Assembly: GCA_947629175.1 (NCBI GenBank)
Contig: CANRCT010000012.1
Location: 1-64,000 of the forward strand
Source: an uncultured Muribaculaceae bacterium
Lineage (GTDB): Bacteria; Bacteroidota; Bacteroidia; Bacteroidales; Muribaculaceae
Direction of reading: 5' to 3'
DNA length: 64,000 nt
The notes below the pieces were generated by a model. It did no database searches. It was not told the DNA's origin and saw only the letters and a program-made list of their open reading frames with translations. The position numbers were made by a program, and so were the translations under genes. Position 1 is the first letter of the stretch. The number at the start of each line of letters is the position of its first letter. Positions 24,731 to 34,641 of this stretch are shown here, in pieces.

Positions 24731-24747
24731 GTACCCGGACCCGGGAT
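24731..24747. repeat. attL (17-bp duplicate of tRNA-Leu 3' end)
   Basis: GTACCCGGACCCGGGAT identical to 34559-34575. Confidence 0.92.
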
Positions 24748-24859: not shown

Positions 24860-24878
24860 TAGTACACTTTTAGTACAC
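24860..24878 (+). repeat. Putative integrase arm-type site, left end
   Basis: TAGTACACTTTTAGTACAC; 18/19 identity, same orientation, to 34490-34508. Confidence 0.7.
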
Positions 24879-24971: not shown

Positions 24972-26219
24972 ATGGCAAATATCAAGACAAAGAACAAACA
25001 AAACCCTAAACTACAGCAGTCCGTACTGAGCGACGGACGGGCCAGCCTTTATCTTGAGTTTTACCTCGGGCGAACCGAAACTCCCGTCGTTGATGATGAC
25101 GGCAACCCGGTGTATTATACCGAAGGTGCGATGAAAGGCAAACAAAAATACAAAATCAAGCATGACCGCCGAAAAGAAAATCTGAACCTATACATCTGGA
25201 TTGCACCCCGTACTCAACAGGAGCGCATCCAGAACAAGAATACGTTGGCTCTTGCCGAGAAAATCCGATTTGAGAGAGAACAGCGTTTGCTTGAGGACCG
25301 GGAAGGCTACCGATTGAAGAAAGAGCGTATCGCCAACTTCCACGACTTCTTTCAAGAATACATAGACACATACACCAAAGCAGACAAGCGCATGATTGAA
25401 ATGGCACATCGGCGTTTCCGTGCTTTTCTCAGCGAAACTCCGGCATATATGATGTATGACCGAATTATAAGACCTCAGCAACTGACTAAGGAAATGATGC
25501 TTTCCTTTGTGGAGTATCTGAAAGCTCACGGCAAAGGTGAAGGCCCACAATCAGTATTCCAGCGTTTCAAGAAAGTCATAGCTTATGCCGTTGAAAAGGA
25601 AATCTTGTCGAAGAACCCTTGCATGGGTATTACCATCAAGGTTGACGAAAAGACTTTGAAGAAAGAAATTCTTTCTCCCGAAGAGATAGAAAGATTGATG
25701 GCAACACATTACGCCAATGAAAATCCTGTTATACAACGAGCATTTCTCTTTAGCTTATTCTGCGGTTTACGTTGGTGTGATGTAAGCGATATAACTTTCC
25801 GAAATATTGATTACGCCAACAAACTTCTGATTTTTGAGCAGAACAAAACACGCGGGCACAGTTCGGCGAGTGGTGTGGTAATCCCTCTTAACGATGATAT
25901 TCTATCTCTTGTAGGATACCCGGCGACAGAGGAAGAACGCGATAGTCTAATATTTCCGCTACCTTCTCATACCGCTTGCCTAAAGGCTGTGAAAAGATGG
26001 GTTAAAAGAGCTGGCATTAGTAAGCATATCACATGGCACTGCGCCCGACATAGTTTCGGGGTTAATTTGCTTAATCGCGGAGCGAATATAAAGACGGTAT
26101 CAACCCTTTTAGGGCATAGCAGCTTACGGCATACGGAAAAATACACACGAGCTAATGACGACCTTATGGTGAAGGCTATAAACAGCCTCGGCAGTGTCAG
26201 CTATGCAAGCCCCGAATAA
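24972..26219 (+). CDS. Tyrosine recombinase/integrase (element 2, intact)
   Basis: FSLFCGLRWCDVSDIT...ITWHCARHSFGVNLLNRGANIKTVSTLLGHSSLRHTEKYTRAND: R..HxxR..H..Y set present. Confidence 0.95.
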   Translation: MANIKTKNKQNPKLQQSVLSDGRASLYLEFYLGRTETPVVDDDGNPVYYTEGAMKGKQKYKIKHDRRKENLNLYIWIAPRTQQERIQNKNTLALAEKIRFEREQRLLEDREGYRLKKERIANFHDFFQEYIDTYTKADKRMIEMAHRRFRAFLSETPAYMMYDRIIRPQQLTKEMMLSFVEYLKAHGKGEGPQSVFQRFKKVIAYAVEKEILSKNPCMGITIKVDEKTLKKEILSPEEIERLMATHYANENPVIQRAFLFSLFCGLRWCDVSDITFRNIDYANKLLIFEQNKTRGHSSASGVVIPLNDDILSLVGYPATEEERDSLIFPLPSHTACLKAVKRWVKRAGISKHITWHCARHSFGVNLLNRGANIKTVSTLLGHSSLRHTEKYTRANDDLMVKAINSLGSVSYASPE

Positions 26220-26470
26220 CTTTCCACGGGATTGAGTGTTATATGGTTGTAGATGTGAGCTAAAAAGCTTAACTTTGCATACGGAATCGCAGTCAAAATA
26301 ATTTTGATTGTGGATTTTAGTGGTCGGACATCGGGAGGGATACCCGGTGTCCTTTTCTATCCCGAAGCATACTTGCAATCAAGATTGCAAGATTTATCGT
26401 CTTTACAACTCTATATATCAGAAATTTGTTGTATCTTTGTAATCTAATAACAAACACAAGGAGTACAGAC

Positions 26471-30608: not shown

Positions 30609-30624
30609 ATTTACCCCATGCACA

Positions 30625-31050
30625 CCTTGCACTTTTGCACACTCCCGACCGTGCAAGAGTGCAAGGAATGCACGGGGGTTATCCCTGAATTTGAAATGAT
30701 GACAACAGAGTTTTTTCTCGGTGTACCACTATACTTATTACAGTGGTTTACCGCTCTGCAACCCTCATCTGGGGAGCAGTCCCATCCGTGCTGCCGCGCA
30801 CGGAAATTACAGCCATGCGGGAAATTCCTTAGCATATTAGGGAATTTTTCGAGCCGCATATCGTTCCGATACGCTAAAAATATCCCCAATATGCCAAAGA
30901 GGTCATCCCCTTTGGAATCCCCGCGCCAACGAGGGCAGAGCCGGGCTTGCCCGGACTATGCCGAGTGCAGCCGGGGAAAGACCGTAGGTCAATCCCCGGA
31001 ACGGCTTAACATGAAGCCGTACACCCCGATTGCTACGCAACAAAAACTCG
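30625..31050. other. Candidate oriT/regulatory region of element 2
   Basis: CCTTGCACTTTTGCAC (30625-30640) / GTGCAAGAGTGCAAGG (30651-30666), 15/16 bp stem. Further small hairpins (ACCACT/AGTGGT, CCGTGC/GCACGG, AAATTCC/GGAATTT, CCGGGC/GCCCGG) before the relaxase start. Confidence 0.5.
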
Positions 31051-31057
31051 TCCGCCT

Positions 31058-32683
31058 ATGAGCTACGCAGTGTTACACATCATCAAGGCGAACTCGTCAC
31101 TGAACTCGATAGCCAAGCATATCGAGCGCACCGCCCATCCCGAAAACGCGGACCCGGCGCGGACGCATCTCAACCGCTACAATCTGGTCGAATATCCCGA
31201 CGGGATAACCGGGCTTGCGGCGGCTGTCGAACACCGCATAGCCAATGCCGGGATTACCCGAAAAATCTCCGACAGACAGGTCCGGTGCCTCAATCTGGTT
31301 ATGACCTCCGACAACGAGGGGATGCAGAGAATCATCGACAGCGGCAAGCTCGACGAATGGATTGCCGACAACATAAAATGGGCGCGCGACACATTCGGCG
31401 GCGACAATGTTGTCGGTGCCGCACTGCACATGGACGAGCGCACTCCGCATCTTCACATCGCCGTCGTTCCGATAGTGACCGCCGAGAGAAAGAAGAAAGC
31501 GAGGGAGGCGACCGCAAAGAGGCGTTACCGCACTAAAGCCGCCAACCGTCCGAGACTGTGCGCCGACGACATAATGGAGCGTGGAAAGATGAGCCGCTAT
31601 CAGGACATCTATGCCGAGGCTATGGAGAAATACGATCTGGAGCGTGGTATACGTGGTTCCGAGGCGCGCCACATCGGGCAGCACGAATATTACCGCGACT
31701 GCATGGTAAAGAAGAAAGGTCTTGAAGAAGACATCGGCAATCTCTCCATTGAGAAAAGAAAGCTCGACAAAGAGAAAAAATCTCTTGAGAGCAAGGTGGA
31801 GAGCCTTGAGTGTCGGACAACCGCCCTCGACTCCCGGAAGAAAATGCTCACGCAGGTTAACGAGGAAATACGGCAGCAGAACAATGAACTCTATTCCGAA
31901 AACACCCGGTTGACCGAGGCTAATTCTTCTCTCGTCGCCGAAAACAAATCGCTTGCCGATACCAACGCAGGACTGTCGGAGGAATCCGTCAGACTTGCGG
32001 AGCAACGGAAAGGACTTGCAGAGGATACCGACAAACTAACCGCCGAGAAAATGGCATACGAGGCACAGACTGACGAGGCGAGAAAAGAAGCCCGAAACGC
32101 CATCCGTGAGCGCGACGAGGCGAAAGCCGAGCGGGATGCACAACGCAAGGAACTCGGCAGCAACATCGCCAATATATTCACCGGGAGCAAGACCAAGAGG
32201 CTTGAAGCCGAGATTGTCAGAAAGGATAATGAAATCCGCGAGATGAAAGACCGTGCAGAGGCGCGGGAGCGGGATTTACACCGTGAAATATCCAATCTAT
32301 CGGATAGCCTGAGACGGCAGAAAGAACATGAGGCAGATACCGTCCGCAGCTATGAATGGAAGATTGGTAACTTCGTCAAGTTCTTTCCCGATGCGGTTGC
32401 CATGCTTCCGGCGATAGAGGAATGTCAGGACGTGGGATTGAATGACAACTCCATAAAGGGGCTTCTCTCAATGAATGAATATGTCTTAAAGTCCGGCATG
32501 ACACTCTATTATCCGTTCCAGCGGAGAGAAGTGGACGCTTCGGGCGCAAAGGTACAAATCAAGCGAGACCCCACGGACAACAAATTTCATCTTCATGTCA
32601 ATGGCACCCGGATATTCCAATGGCTCAAAGACCAATGGCAACGGCTTACCCAGACGGTAAAGAGAGGATTCGGAATCAATTAA
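31058..32683 (+). CDS. MobV-family relaxase with coiled-coil region
   Basis: MSYAVLHIIKANSSLNSIAKHIERTAHPENADPARTHLN...GAALHMDERTPHLHIAVVPI; long Glu/Lys-rich coiled coil after about residue 210. Confidence 0.9.
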   Translation: MSYAVLHIIKANSSLNSIAKHIERTAHPENADPARTHLNRYNLVEYPDGITGLAAAVEHRIANAGITRKISDRQVRCLNLVMTSDNEGMQRIIDSGKLDEWIADNIKWARDTFGGDNVVGAALHMDERTPHLHIAVVPIVTAERKKKAREATAKRRYRTKAANRPRLCADDIMERGKMSRYQDIYAEAMEKYDLERGIRGSEARHIGQHEYYRDCMVKKKGLEEDIGNLSIEKRKLDKEKKSLESKVESLECRTTALDSRKKMLTQVNEEIRQQNNELYSENTRLTEANSSLVAENKSLADTNAGLSEESVRLAEQRKGLAEDTDKLTAEKMAYEAQTDEARKEARNAIRERDEAKAERDAQRKELGSNIANIFTGSKTKRLEAEIVRKDNEIREMKDRAEARERDLHREISNLSDSLRRQKEHEADTVRSYEWKIGNFVKFFPDAVAMLPAIEECQDVGLNDNSIKGLLSMNEYVLKSGMTLYYPFQRREVDASGAKVQIKRDPTDNKFHLHVNGTRIFQWLKDQWQRLTQTVKRGFGIN

Positions 32684-32762: not shown

Positions 32763-34091
32763 TTATCTTTTCAATAGGCCTATCGCCTTATCAAGTTGTG
32801 AGTCAGTATTATTTAATAAATCTTCAATAGTGTACTCAACAACTATATCGGGGATTATACCTGTTTCAATGATACTTGAACCGTCTGGATTAAAATACGC
32901 CCATGTTGACAAACCATAACTATAACCGCCAGGCAAATCAAAGTAGCGTGGGTGTGAAATAACCCCAACAGTGTGTGAACCGACTATTTTAGCCAAACCG
33001 AGATTTTTCATAGTGACAGCAAAGTCTTCTGCTGCAGAACCTGTATATCCATCTGTAAGTATTATTACAGGACATTTTATTTTTAAGGAATCTGGAATTT
33101 GACTAAAATAACTTCCACCAGTCCTGACTACTTCCATAGCTGTTTCTGTGGCAAAATCTTTTAGTTGAGGTATTTGACTGCCATATTCTTGAAAAGCACT
33201 GTTAGCAACTCGGCATCTTATAATAAGTGCAGCGTTTTGGTCTTTATCCGCAGGAGCGATATAATCGAAAATTGCAGGATTCCAACACTCGTCAGTGCCG
33301 CCACGGTTACCGCGGATGTCAAAGATTACTCCTCTTGAATTTCGGAATGACGGCAGATTTTCGCTGAACACGTTGTTCACATCATCCGGTTTAGTGAAAG
33401 TAGCCATACGCATATAGGCTATATTGTCCGGCAGATTTTCTATATAAGCAACTCTTTTATCGAGTGTCTTCCCCCACTCATAGGATTCCAACGCCTGTGG
33501 CTCTACGCGCTTAAGGGTAAGTGTCTCAGTTTTATGTTTTGGCGTGATGAATTCCAATTTTACGTCCGAGCCTAAATCCCCATTTAGGAACATATCCAGC
33601 GATTTACGAAATTTCCATTCATTGTTAGCTGCTGACACATAGGGATATATGTTAGCCTCAAGGAAATCTGCAACTGACACATCATCAATTTTTACAAGTT
33701 GGCTACCGATGGGAATCTTCTTGATAAATTGTTTGCCAATATTCTTAACAAACACCTGATTGTCTAATCCGATAAATTGAATGGGAACAGTAGCGGAGGG
33801 AGCTTCTGCGAAAAAGCGAGTGTGAGCGTCACCGAACTGAGCAAGAAACTCGGTCATCAGTAGTGAAAAATCTTGTTCACTTTTGGCGTTCATTATCCTT
33901 GGTAAGAAAGTTTTAAACAAACTATCCGGATTAGCCTGTTCAAAATGTTGTGGGAACGCAAAGTTATCACGCACATTTCGCCAAACAGTTGATAGAATAT
34001 ACAACCTATCTTCGGGGCTTGTTTCTGCTTTTACGAGAGGAACAGCCAACAAACTGATGAGAAAACAAAAAAAGCTAAGTATTTTCTTCAT
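32763..34091 (-). CDS. S41-family (C-terminal processing/tail-specific) peptidase, secreted
   Basis: Signal peptide MKKILSFFCFLISLLAVPLVKA; GVIFDIRGNRGGTDE; CPVIILTDGYTGSAAEDFAVTMKNLGLAKIVGSHTVGV (catalytic Ser/Lys region). Confidence 0.88.
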   Translation of the reverse strand: MKKILSFFCFLISLLAVPLVKAETSPEDRLYILSTVWRNVRDNFAFPQHFEQANPDSLFKTFLPRIMNAKSEQDFSLLMTEFLAQFGDAHTRFFAEAPSATVPIQFIGLDNQVFVKNIGKQFIKKIPIGSQLVKIDDVSVADFLEANIYPYVSAANNEWKFRKSLDMFLNGDLGSDVKLEFITPKHKTETLTLKRVEPQALESYEWGKTLDKRVAYIENLPDNIAYMRMATFTKPDDVNNVFSENLPSFRNSRGVIFDIRGNRGGTDECWNPAIFDYIAPADKDQNAALIIRCRVANSAFQEYGSQIPQLKDFATETAMEVVRTGGSYFSQIPDSLKIKCPVIILTDGYTGSAAEDFAVTMKNLGLAKIVGSHTVGVISHPRYFDLPGGYSYGLSTWAYFNPDGSSIIETGIIPDIVVEYTIEDLLNNTDSQLDKAIGLLKR

Positions 34092-34160
34092 ATTTTATAA
34101 AGTCTCATTGGCTCTTTGAGAGTAGTAACAAAAGAAAACGTGAGCCAACTATGCCACGTC

Positions 34161-34281
34161 GTAGTTTGAAGGTCGTAGGAAACCATTTGCACAGATGTAA
34201 CAATAGCAGCCCACGCTATGCGCGTGAGAACCACTATGCTATCCTTGTGCGGTTTTTGAATTTCCTACGTTCTCAAACTAC
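34161..34281. repeat. Five-stem nested inverted-repeat structure upstream of the S41 gene
   Basis: GTAGTTTG/CAAACTAC (34161-68/34274-81), GTAGGAAA/TTTCCTAC (34175-82/34261-68), GCACA/TGTGC (34189-93/34246-50), ATAGCA/TGCTAT (34203-08/34237-42), CACGC/GCGTG (34212-16/34222-26). Confidence 0.75.
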
Positions 34282-34489
34282 AAGATAAGCATAACGCTTC
34301 TTATTTTTCCAAAATGTAGCGGACCGACCGCTGTCAATCCGATTACAAAGTTAGTGCTTTATTCTCAATGTAAGGCTATCTAACCTCTTGAATTATCAGC
34401 AAAAGAGCGAAAAAGAATCGAATTAAATAAAATGAACGGCTACTAAAAATTGCTAAACTATTCATTTGGAATGGCTCAATTTTCGCCGA

Positions 34490-34508
34490 TAGTACACGTT
34501 TAGTACAC
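34490..34508 (+). repeat. Putative integrase arm-type site, right end
   Basis: TAGTACACGTTTAGTACAC, 18/19 to 24860-24878. Confidence 0.7.
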
Positions 34509-34519
34509 GTTATAAAAGA

Positions 34520-34557
34520 AATAATGACTGATAATTAGATGATTATCAGTCATTATT
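34520..34557 (-). terminator. Element-supplied tRNA-Leu terminator
   Basis: Perfect 16-bp stem AATAATGACTGATAAT (34520-34535) / ATTATCAGTCATTATT (34542-34557), directly 3' of the tRNA. On the minus strand the 3' arm ends in TTATT and is followed by TCTTTTAT. Confidence 0.7.
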
Positions 34558-34559
34558 TG

Positions 34560-34641
34560 TACCCGGACCCGGGATCGAACCGGGATGGATCGCTCCAACG
34601 GTGTTTGAGACCGTCGCGTCTACCGATTCCGCCATCCGGGC
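34560..34641 (-). tRNA. tRNA-Leu(CAA)
   Basis: Minus strand GCCCGGATGGCGGAATCGGTAGACGCGACGGTCTCAAACACCGTTGGAGCGATCCATCCCGGTTCGATCCCGGGTCCGGGTA: 7-bp acceptor stem, long variable arm, anticodon loop CTCAAAC, T-loop TTCGATC. Confidence 0.95.

Follow-up and report, generated by a model that had tools for sequence, protein, structure and literature searches.

A putative pseudoknotted leader RNA ahead of many unrelated accessory genes in Bacteroidota

A palindrome within an integrative mobilizable element

The window—the whole 64,000-nucleotide stretch of contig CANRCT010000012.1 analysed here, from an uncultured Muribaculaceae bacterium—carries an integrative mobilizable element between 17-bp repeats at 24731 and 34559. 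The genes of the element encode a tyrosine integrase, a GNAT protein, an HTH_17 protein, a DUF3987 protein, a Mob_Pre relaxase and an S41 peptidase; the integrase, which adjoins attL, contains Phage_integrase, SAM-like 5 and arm-binding domains. The palindrome considered here also lies within the element. The main landmarks are:

24731-24747: attL direct repeat GTACCCGGACCCGGGAT, a 17-bp repeat
24972-26219, plus strand: tyrosine integrase of the element (PF00589, PF13102, PF17293)
31058-32683, plus strand: Mob_Pre (MobV-type) relaxase gene of the element (PF01076, E 1.7e-23)
32763-34091, minus strand: cargo gene, S41 family peptidase with a signal peptide-like start (PF03572, E 7.8e-25)
34559-34575: attR direct repeat, at the 3' end of tRNA-Leu(CAA) (34559-34641)

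The element resembles the NBU/Tn4555 kind of integrative and mobilizable element (review PMC5704250) both in its position in tRNA-Leu and in having genes for a tyrosine integrase, an HTH protein, DUF3987 and Mob_Pre.

Four further sequences were recorded in the element. Direct repeats TAGTACAC..TAGTACAC, 95% identical, lie near both element ends (24860-24878 and 34490-34508), and are possibly integrase arm-type sites. A perfect 17-bp inverted repeat (34519-34558) directly adjoins the tRNA-Leu/attR end. A 27-nt inverted repeat of 85% complementarity (30614-30677) directly follows the DUF3987 gene; the relaxase gene starts ~380 bp further on, which makes the repeat a candidate oriT by position. 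Finally, the rteR sRNA family gives a weak match between the integrase and GNAT genes (26283-26354; 38.8 bits, E 0.0033, gathering score 72).

The initial annotation described the palindrome as a 121-nt unit (34161-34281) of five nested stems, and all five were found exactly where it had placed them on the plus strand. As RNA, a 136-nt stretch has a folding energy of -39.8 kcal/mol (z -3.42) and beats 200/200 dinucleotide shuffles, while the minus-strand DNA (z -3.67) beats 199/200; the conservation and covariation reported below likewise indicate that the palindrome is not a product of chance. The structure is also, as had been proposed, more than a terminator: neither the core nor the tail contains a terminator-like site on either strand, and only P1, a hairpin upstream of the core, is picked up in a terminator-like scan. 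Two aspects of the original description required revision. Firstly, the stems are correct but the extent is not, the functional unit running from the promoter (34353-34346) to the S41 start codon (34091). Secondly, the palindrome does lie before the S41 gene, but the sense strand is the minus strand, since the nearest gene on one side reads away from the palindrome in almost every homologous locus; the hairpin would thus, if transcribed, form the leader of the S41 gene.

The predicted leader RNA so delimited is ~250 nt long and is encoded on the minus strand of the window, in the order promoter (TAACTTTG), RNA, S41 cargo gene, with the S41 start codon 43 nt past the core. The promoter motif TAnnTTTG is the Bacteroides -7 box, and we infer a transcription start at about 34339. 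Besides the five stems, three pairings absent from the initial annotation were found: a closing helix (P0), a pseudoknot (Px), and a tail pseudoknot that joins the core to a hairpin just before the AUG. From 5' to 3', and with paired strands given together, the features are:

34346-34353, minus strand: promoter -7 element TAACTTTG (Bacteroidota consensus TAnnTTTG), at conserved spacing to the core
34320-34341, minus strand: P1, hairpin at the predicted RNA 5' end (CGGATTGAC-AGCG-GTCGGTCCG); covaries in the structure-free alignment (columns 14-20/25-31)
34135-34305, minus strand: conserved core, 173 positions in covariance model R1, which scores it at 187.7 bits (E 6.5e-37) within its own genome
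34295-34299 (5') and 34136-34140 (3'), minus strand: P0, AAGCG in the RNA with CGUUU in the window RNA (CGCUU in most homologues)
34282-34287 (5') and 34240-34245 (3'), minus strand: pseudoknot helix Px, UAUCUU with AGGAUA, the latter overlapping the base of P5
34274-34281 (5') and 34161-34168 (3'), minus strand: P2, the outermost stem of the initial annotation (plus strand, GTAGTTTG 34161-34168 / CAAACTAC 34274-34281); pairs show as many as four Watson-Crick types and are 96% paired
34261-34269 (5', CGUAGGAAA) and 34174-34182 (3'), minus strand: P3 (plus strand, (C)GTAGGAAA 34174-34182 / TTTCCTAC(G) 34261-34269); 97% paired
34246-34250 (5', GCACA) and 34189-34193 (3'), minus strand: P4 (plus strand, GCACA 34189-34193 / TGTGC 34246-34250); 95% paired, four Watson-Crick types at several pairs
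34237-34242 (5', AUAGCA) and 34203-34208 (3'), minus strand: P5 (plus strand, ATAGCA 34203-34208 / TGCTAT 34237-34242); 90-94% paired, mostly conserved
34222-34226 (5', CACGC) and 34212-34216 (3', GCGUG), minus strand: P6 (plus strand, CACGC 34212-34216 / GCGTG 34222-34226); 99.6% paired
34142-34148, minus strand: upstream strand of the tail pseudoknot, UUGGCUC in the RNA, a perfect 7-bp complement of 34108-34114
34108-34114, minus strand: downstream strand of the tail pseudoknot, GAGCCAA, in the tail-hairpin loop
34103-34121, minus strand: tail hairpin UCUC-AAAGAGCCAAU-GAGA, ending 11 nt before the start codon

Covariation in the helices and pseudoknots

In a structure-free alignment of 141 sequences, covariation is seen in P2, P3 and P4 (with positions that show as many as four Watson-Crick types) and in the 5' hairpin P1. 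Among the homologues, P3 takes the forms CGUAGGAAA/UUUCCUACG, CCUGAGAAA/UUUCUCAGG and CCUAGGAAA/UUUCCUAGG. A second alignment, A4, holds 104 sequences (nine of them distant) aligned by R1, a model built from 35 sequences with the window sequence among them. With P0 and Px added, 95.3% of the 4400 cells in A4 are paired and 34 of the 43 pairs have changed on both sides; homologues with compensatory changes, whose absence the initial annotation had named as an argument against itself, therefore exist. The covariation score of A4 is 0.425, as compared with 0.161 after shuffling and 0.036-0.074 with a slid partner, and the observed values were reached in 0 of 500 shuffles; A4 was fitted to P2-P6, and leans their way because R1 contained them, while P0 and Px lie outside the model.

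P0, though unmodelled, is paired in 97.7% of cells, with three pairs changed on both sides. Alignment-free swap tests of P0 and Px gave z -5.7 each, and none of 20000 permutations was as good, values that kinship among the sequences can inflate. Direct compensation is found in the distant homologues: AAGGUGU/ACACCUU for P0 (L169), and AUUCUGU/ACGGAAU (L164), GUCUUGU/ACAAGAC (L168) and GUUCUC/GAGAAC (L170) for Px.

The tail pseudoknot takes a common form in most homologues: CAGUUCC at the core 3' end pairs with GGAACUG in the loop of a hairpin that precedes the start codon. In a swap test of 106 loci, strands paired with their own partners at a mean of -9.8 kcal/mol, and with swapped partners at -7.9 (z -10.2). 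The pseudoknot strand lies within the tail hairpin in 75 of 112 loci, and the hairpin 3' end falls a median of 15 nt before the AUG (middle half 11-18). Compensated variants, distant homologues among them, include CGGUUCC/GGAACCG, CAGCUCC/GGAGCUA, AACCC/GGGUU and AGUCCC/GGGACU. Sixteen loci clearly do without the tail pseudoknot, and in these the gap to the AUG is shorter (median 41 vs 51 nt, p 0.006). A minority of loci thus contain no convincing tail pseudoknot, which cannot therefore be indispensable.

The wobble pairs bear on which strand, and which nucleic acid, is folded. Over P0-P6, read on the sense strand, G-U and A-C combinations occur in a ratio of 168:67; an antisense single-stranded DNA structure would not yield such an overall G-U excess, which favours sense-strand RNA. 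By helix, the ratio is 18:0 in P6, 27:5 in the unmodelled P0, about even in P4 and 4:9 in P3.

Two candidate hairpins compete with P0. One, GUGG..CCAC at the core 3' end, is missing from the distant homologues and was left out of the final structure; the other, AAGC-GUUAU-GCUU, fails in 22% at one pair, as against 2% for P0. A further helix, P2' (UUGAA/UUCAA), joins positions 29-33 of the core in A4 to positions 47-51 and uses the same 5' strand as P2; it covaries partially, with A33-U47 paired in 99% and present as A-U and G-C types. P2' is perhaps a folding intermediate or a switch.

Distribution, cargo genes and exchange on either side

Homologues were found at more than 160 places in Bacteroidota, with a common architecture of promoter, core and start codon. 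Of 165 places, 128 have TAnnTTTG at 43-52 nt (mode 48) ahead of the core. Of the 156 that could be scored, 140 have a start codon, in the same orientation, 0-90 nt past the core, and in 107 the distance is 40-69 nt; this narrow spacing could partly mirror the sites of cargo swaps instead of translation. Nine of the 165 copies have no good ORF within 400 nt, several of them at contig ends.

BLAST matches include seven plasmid records (Phocaeicola, Bacteroides, Parabacteroides, Prevotella) and phage-labelled contigs, and among genomes of the order the sequence is present in 44 of 395. An exact-pattern scan of species genomes returned at least 119 stretches, mostly in records titled with Bacteroidales genera; among the matches listed, a few are titled Clostridia, Roseburia, Oscillospiraceae or Akkermansia MAG bins, and may be binning errors. 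The R1 search matched 157 of 199 sampled genomes of the window's family, with one to nine copies each, and 12 of 399 genomes in a sample of the phylum, including other families of the class, weakly (42-62 bits). The distant copies follow the same plan, and most are again ahead of a different gene. In a fresh sample of 20 copies found by R1 in five genomes, a start codon lies 15-103 nt downstream in 19 (L202 looks off-register), most copies have the promoter, and many have a visible tail partner. Copies also occur on multi-megabase contigs.

The window's genome carries one full copy and one decayed copy (G000:C15:824-978; L002, L178), the latter scoring 28 bits and adjoining unrelated genes. 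A Rikenellaceae MAG contig (CAMWRR010000193.1, L159:120-1500) holds four to five tandem RNA units, each of ~295 nt, with their own promoters and divergent stems and without a convincing cargo ORF; an HTH/SocA-Panacea-like ORF (1766-2827) follows.

The genes that follow the leader are diverse. The 140 first genes (start 0-90 nt past the core) fall into 68 unrelated sequence families, and 63 cargo representatives match 87 Pfam families, none of them dominant. Among the cargo are proteases, TonB-linked proteins and receptors, lipoproteins, DarT-like and MBOAT proteins, the class A beta-lactamase blaMUN-1 on pBUN1, and a lincosamide nucleotidyltransferase-like protein (L028, named from its sequence); the set gives one match to the Pfam aminoglycoside-2''-adenylyltransferase family. 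In 22 of the 140 cases, more than for any other cargo, the gene encodes a secreted protein of one family, whose members have a motif resembling FLGIPVDGxK close to the N-terminus; the loci concerned include L017, L022, L025, L029, L032, L036, L038, L041, L092, L200 and L205.

Of the 112 loci that span 7 kb or more, 39 contain element markers (homologues of an integrase, relaxase, primase or HTH protein); this count is a lower bound, the 13 queries having come from three such elements. The leader is not bound to elements of the NBU/Tn4555 kind, most copies lying outside the tested markers. A relaxase gene was found in 47 cases. In 44 it is upstream of the leader on the same strand, its 3' end nearest, with 27 at 600 bp or less; in the other 3 it is downstream on the opposite strand, the arrangement also seen in the window.

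Exchange was observed on either side of the leader. Some pairs of loci have backbone and leader in common and diverge between -1 and +28 nt from the core end (L021/L026, L021/L145, L071/L124, L113/L125), while others have leader and cargo in common and different upstream DNA (L123/L144, over 4 kb; L030/L158). Many other pairs share only the ~225-bp leader, at 93-97% identity. Such variable breakpoints inside the leader would suit homologous recombination. The shared sequence of L123/L144 begins near the predicted +1, and movement of the module as RNA was considered on that account; the idea was dropped because L030/L158 break within the 5' part of the leader, which is what plain homologous recombination gives.

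No Rfam covariance model matched over the core in the window and seven close homologues (up to E 1), or in twelve further loci with distant homologues (up to E 0.5). In the excerpts of literature covered—on Tn4555/cfxA cassettes, Bacteroides leaders and structured-RNA surveys—the leader is undescribed, except possibly for a fragment, HMP2_4078. This is a palindromic 109-bp Bacteroidetes structured-RNA candidate that Fremin and Bhatt (2021, PMC8040213) place close to phage integrase and D5 N-terminal domains. On a comparison of descriptions only, it may be part of the leader RNA; the passages covered give it neither a leader role nor pseudoknots nor the cargo pattern.

A leader probably acting in cis, and its alternatives

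The best reading of these observations is an uncatalogued class of cis-acting leader RNA, spread across Bacteroidota and placed ahead of many unrelated accessory genes. On comparative grounds, it is almost certain that the palindrome belongs to a conserved sense-strand leader RNA. Indeed, a 5'-UTR regulatory RNA was among the possibilities raised in the initial annotation, and it is the one strongly supported by the fixed position and orientation before one start codon, the conserved promoter, the compensation in RNA helices and the wobble asymmetry. The palindrome would supply the nested helices at the core of a pseudoknotted 5' leader RNA of ~250 nt. Transcription would begin at the leader's own promoter and pass straight into whichever cargo gene comes first in the integrative mobilizable element (here, the S41 peptidase), and we infer that the leader acts in cis on the gene directly after it. 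Through the 3' pseudoknot, a hairpin would be docked ~15 nt before the AUG, which is where the footprint of the 30S subunit is expected to end on its upstream side. Since this pseudoknotted hairpin abuts the expected ribosome footprint, we modestly favour a model in which the leader acts mainly at translation initiation, its fold most likely gating or promoting that step. The conformation would be set by a ligand, protein or ribosome state that is common to many hosts and is not encoded by the element; as many functions and many hosts are served by a single leader, a metabolite specific to the cargo is a less likely signal than one borne by the host, or than the ribosome itself. With the same leader on every cargo, leaders would also provide the homology at which cargo and backbones recombine.

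The leader RNAs preQ1-II and SAM-II are cis-regulatory and place a pseudoknot at the ribosome-binding site. The leader described here is alike in having a structured 5' leader with covarying helices, a pseudoknot near the start codon, and a gene or operon in cis. Known riboswitches, however, precede a coherent gene set for one metabolite, whereas this leader has no Rfam match and precedes no coherent metabolic gene set, its cargo being spread over the sequence and Pfam families counted above. Unrelated cargo hints at no ligand, so a riboswitch proper is unproven; the leader works like the riboswitch type, and we do not claim membership of it.

The same leader could instead act on transcription, by modifying or pausing RNA polymerase (processive antitermination or attenuation) such that foreign cargo operons escape termination. 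A leader that serves any downstream gene fits antitermination; so do an RNA of complex structure close to +1, with P1 as a hairpin of its own, and the U-rich sequence that follows the core 3' end in several loci. The put RNA of HK022 and EAR of Bacillus are processive antitermination RNAs, and resemble the leader as generic leader RNAs that help whatever lies downstream, but no Rfam match to such families was obtained and the structure here extends to a pseudoknot just before the AUG. Neither this tail pseudoknot nor the start-codon spacing would be needed for an effect on transcription, and the scan of the window found no intrinsic terminator-like site between the core and the start codon; we regard a transcriptional role as unlikely, although antitermination is the strongest of the alternatives. 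A trans-acting non-coding RNA, the promoter of which incidentally serves the next gene too, would agree with the conserved loop sequences and with the tandem units on the Rikenellaceae contig that have no clear cargo. Such an RNA would not account for a fixed distance to the start codon in nearly every copy or for pairing between the core and the sequence adjoining the AUG, and genomes hold up to nine copies, which in the five-genome sample precede different genes. It is, accordingly, a very unlikely explanation.

The initial annotation also raised a folded single-stranded DNA site of the attC or sso type, and we weighed this possibility broadly, as an attC-/attI-like cassette recombination site, sso, oriT or single-strand promoter. 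A bulged, imperfect palindrome on mobile elements, a minus DNA strand that folds well, and different cargo on elements with the same backbone and leader all speak for such a site, and the leader shares with integron attI/attC both the bulged palindrome and a promoter adjoining exchangeable cargo. Unlike attI/attC, it is present as one copy 5' of the gene, is conserved as sense RNA, and has no known link to an integron integrase. Second copies beside the cargo, as a cassette model predicts, were sought; only separate leaders of separate genes were found, and in the longer loci (8-12 kb) no second copy lies at the cargo 3' end. The G-U excess speaks indirectly against antisense single-stranded DNA, the leader is not linked to any one recombinase or replication gene (with element markers in only the minority of loci given above), and the element's own integrase is an ordinary phage-type enzyme adjoining attL. 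The oriT of Mob_Pre relaxases sits just upstream of the mob gene, while the leader, as noted, is nearly always behind it, and copies on multi-megabase contigs make an sso unlikely. A DNA site of any of these types is thus extremely improbable. Lastly, a miniature inverted-repeat element (MITE), or a neutral block of homology spread by recombination and devoid of RNA function, would explain pairs of loci that share the ~225 bp with unrelated DNA on both sides. But compensatory changes are found in every helix, bulged helices covary, the orientation to genes and start codons is fixed, and homologues from distant families keep mainly the structure; we give this explanation next to no credence, and as a full account it is refuted by the covariation.

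To return to the cis-acting leader, the finding concerns an abundant structured RNA—in about four in five sampled genomes of the window's family, with up to nine copies—that has no Rfam entry. It looks like a portable control element for accessory genes, many of them on mobile elements. Since these genes include blaMUN-1 and the lincosamide nucleotidyltransferase-like gene, the leader may govern when horizontally acquired genes, antibiotic resistance among them, are expressed in gut Bacteroidota. The Bacteroidota ribosome largely dispenses with Shine-Dalgarno pairing, and a bolder version of the model, drawn by analogy and in our view quite unlikely, is a gene-independent expression element in which the pseudoknotted RNA itself would recruit or gate that ribosome in an IRES-like manner. 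If true, mobile elements could have whatever cargo they carry expressed in whichever Bacteroidota host they enter, and the same expression element would double as a homologous junction for the exchange of cargo modules. More generally, two matters become testable with the leader: the way in which mobile cargo is controlled in hosts largely without Shine-Dalgarno initiation, and the way in which integrative elements exchange their cargo genes.
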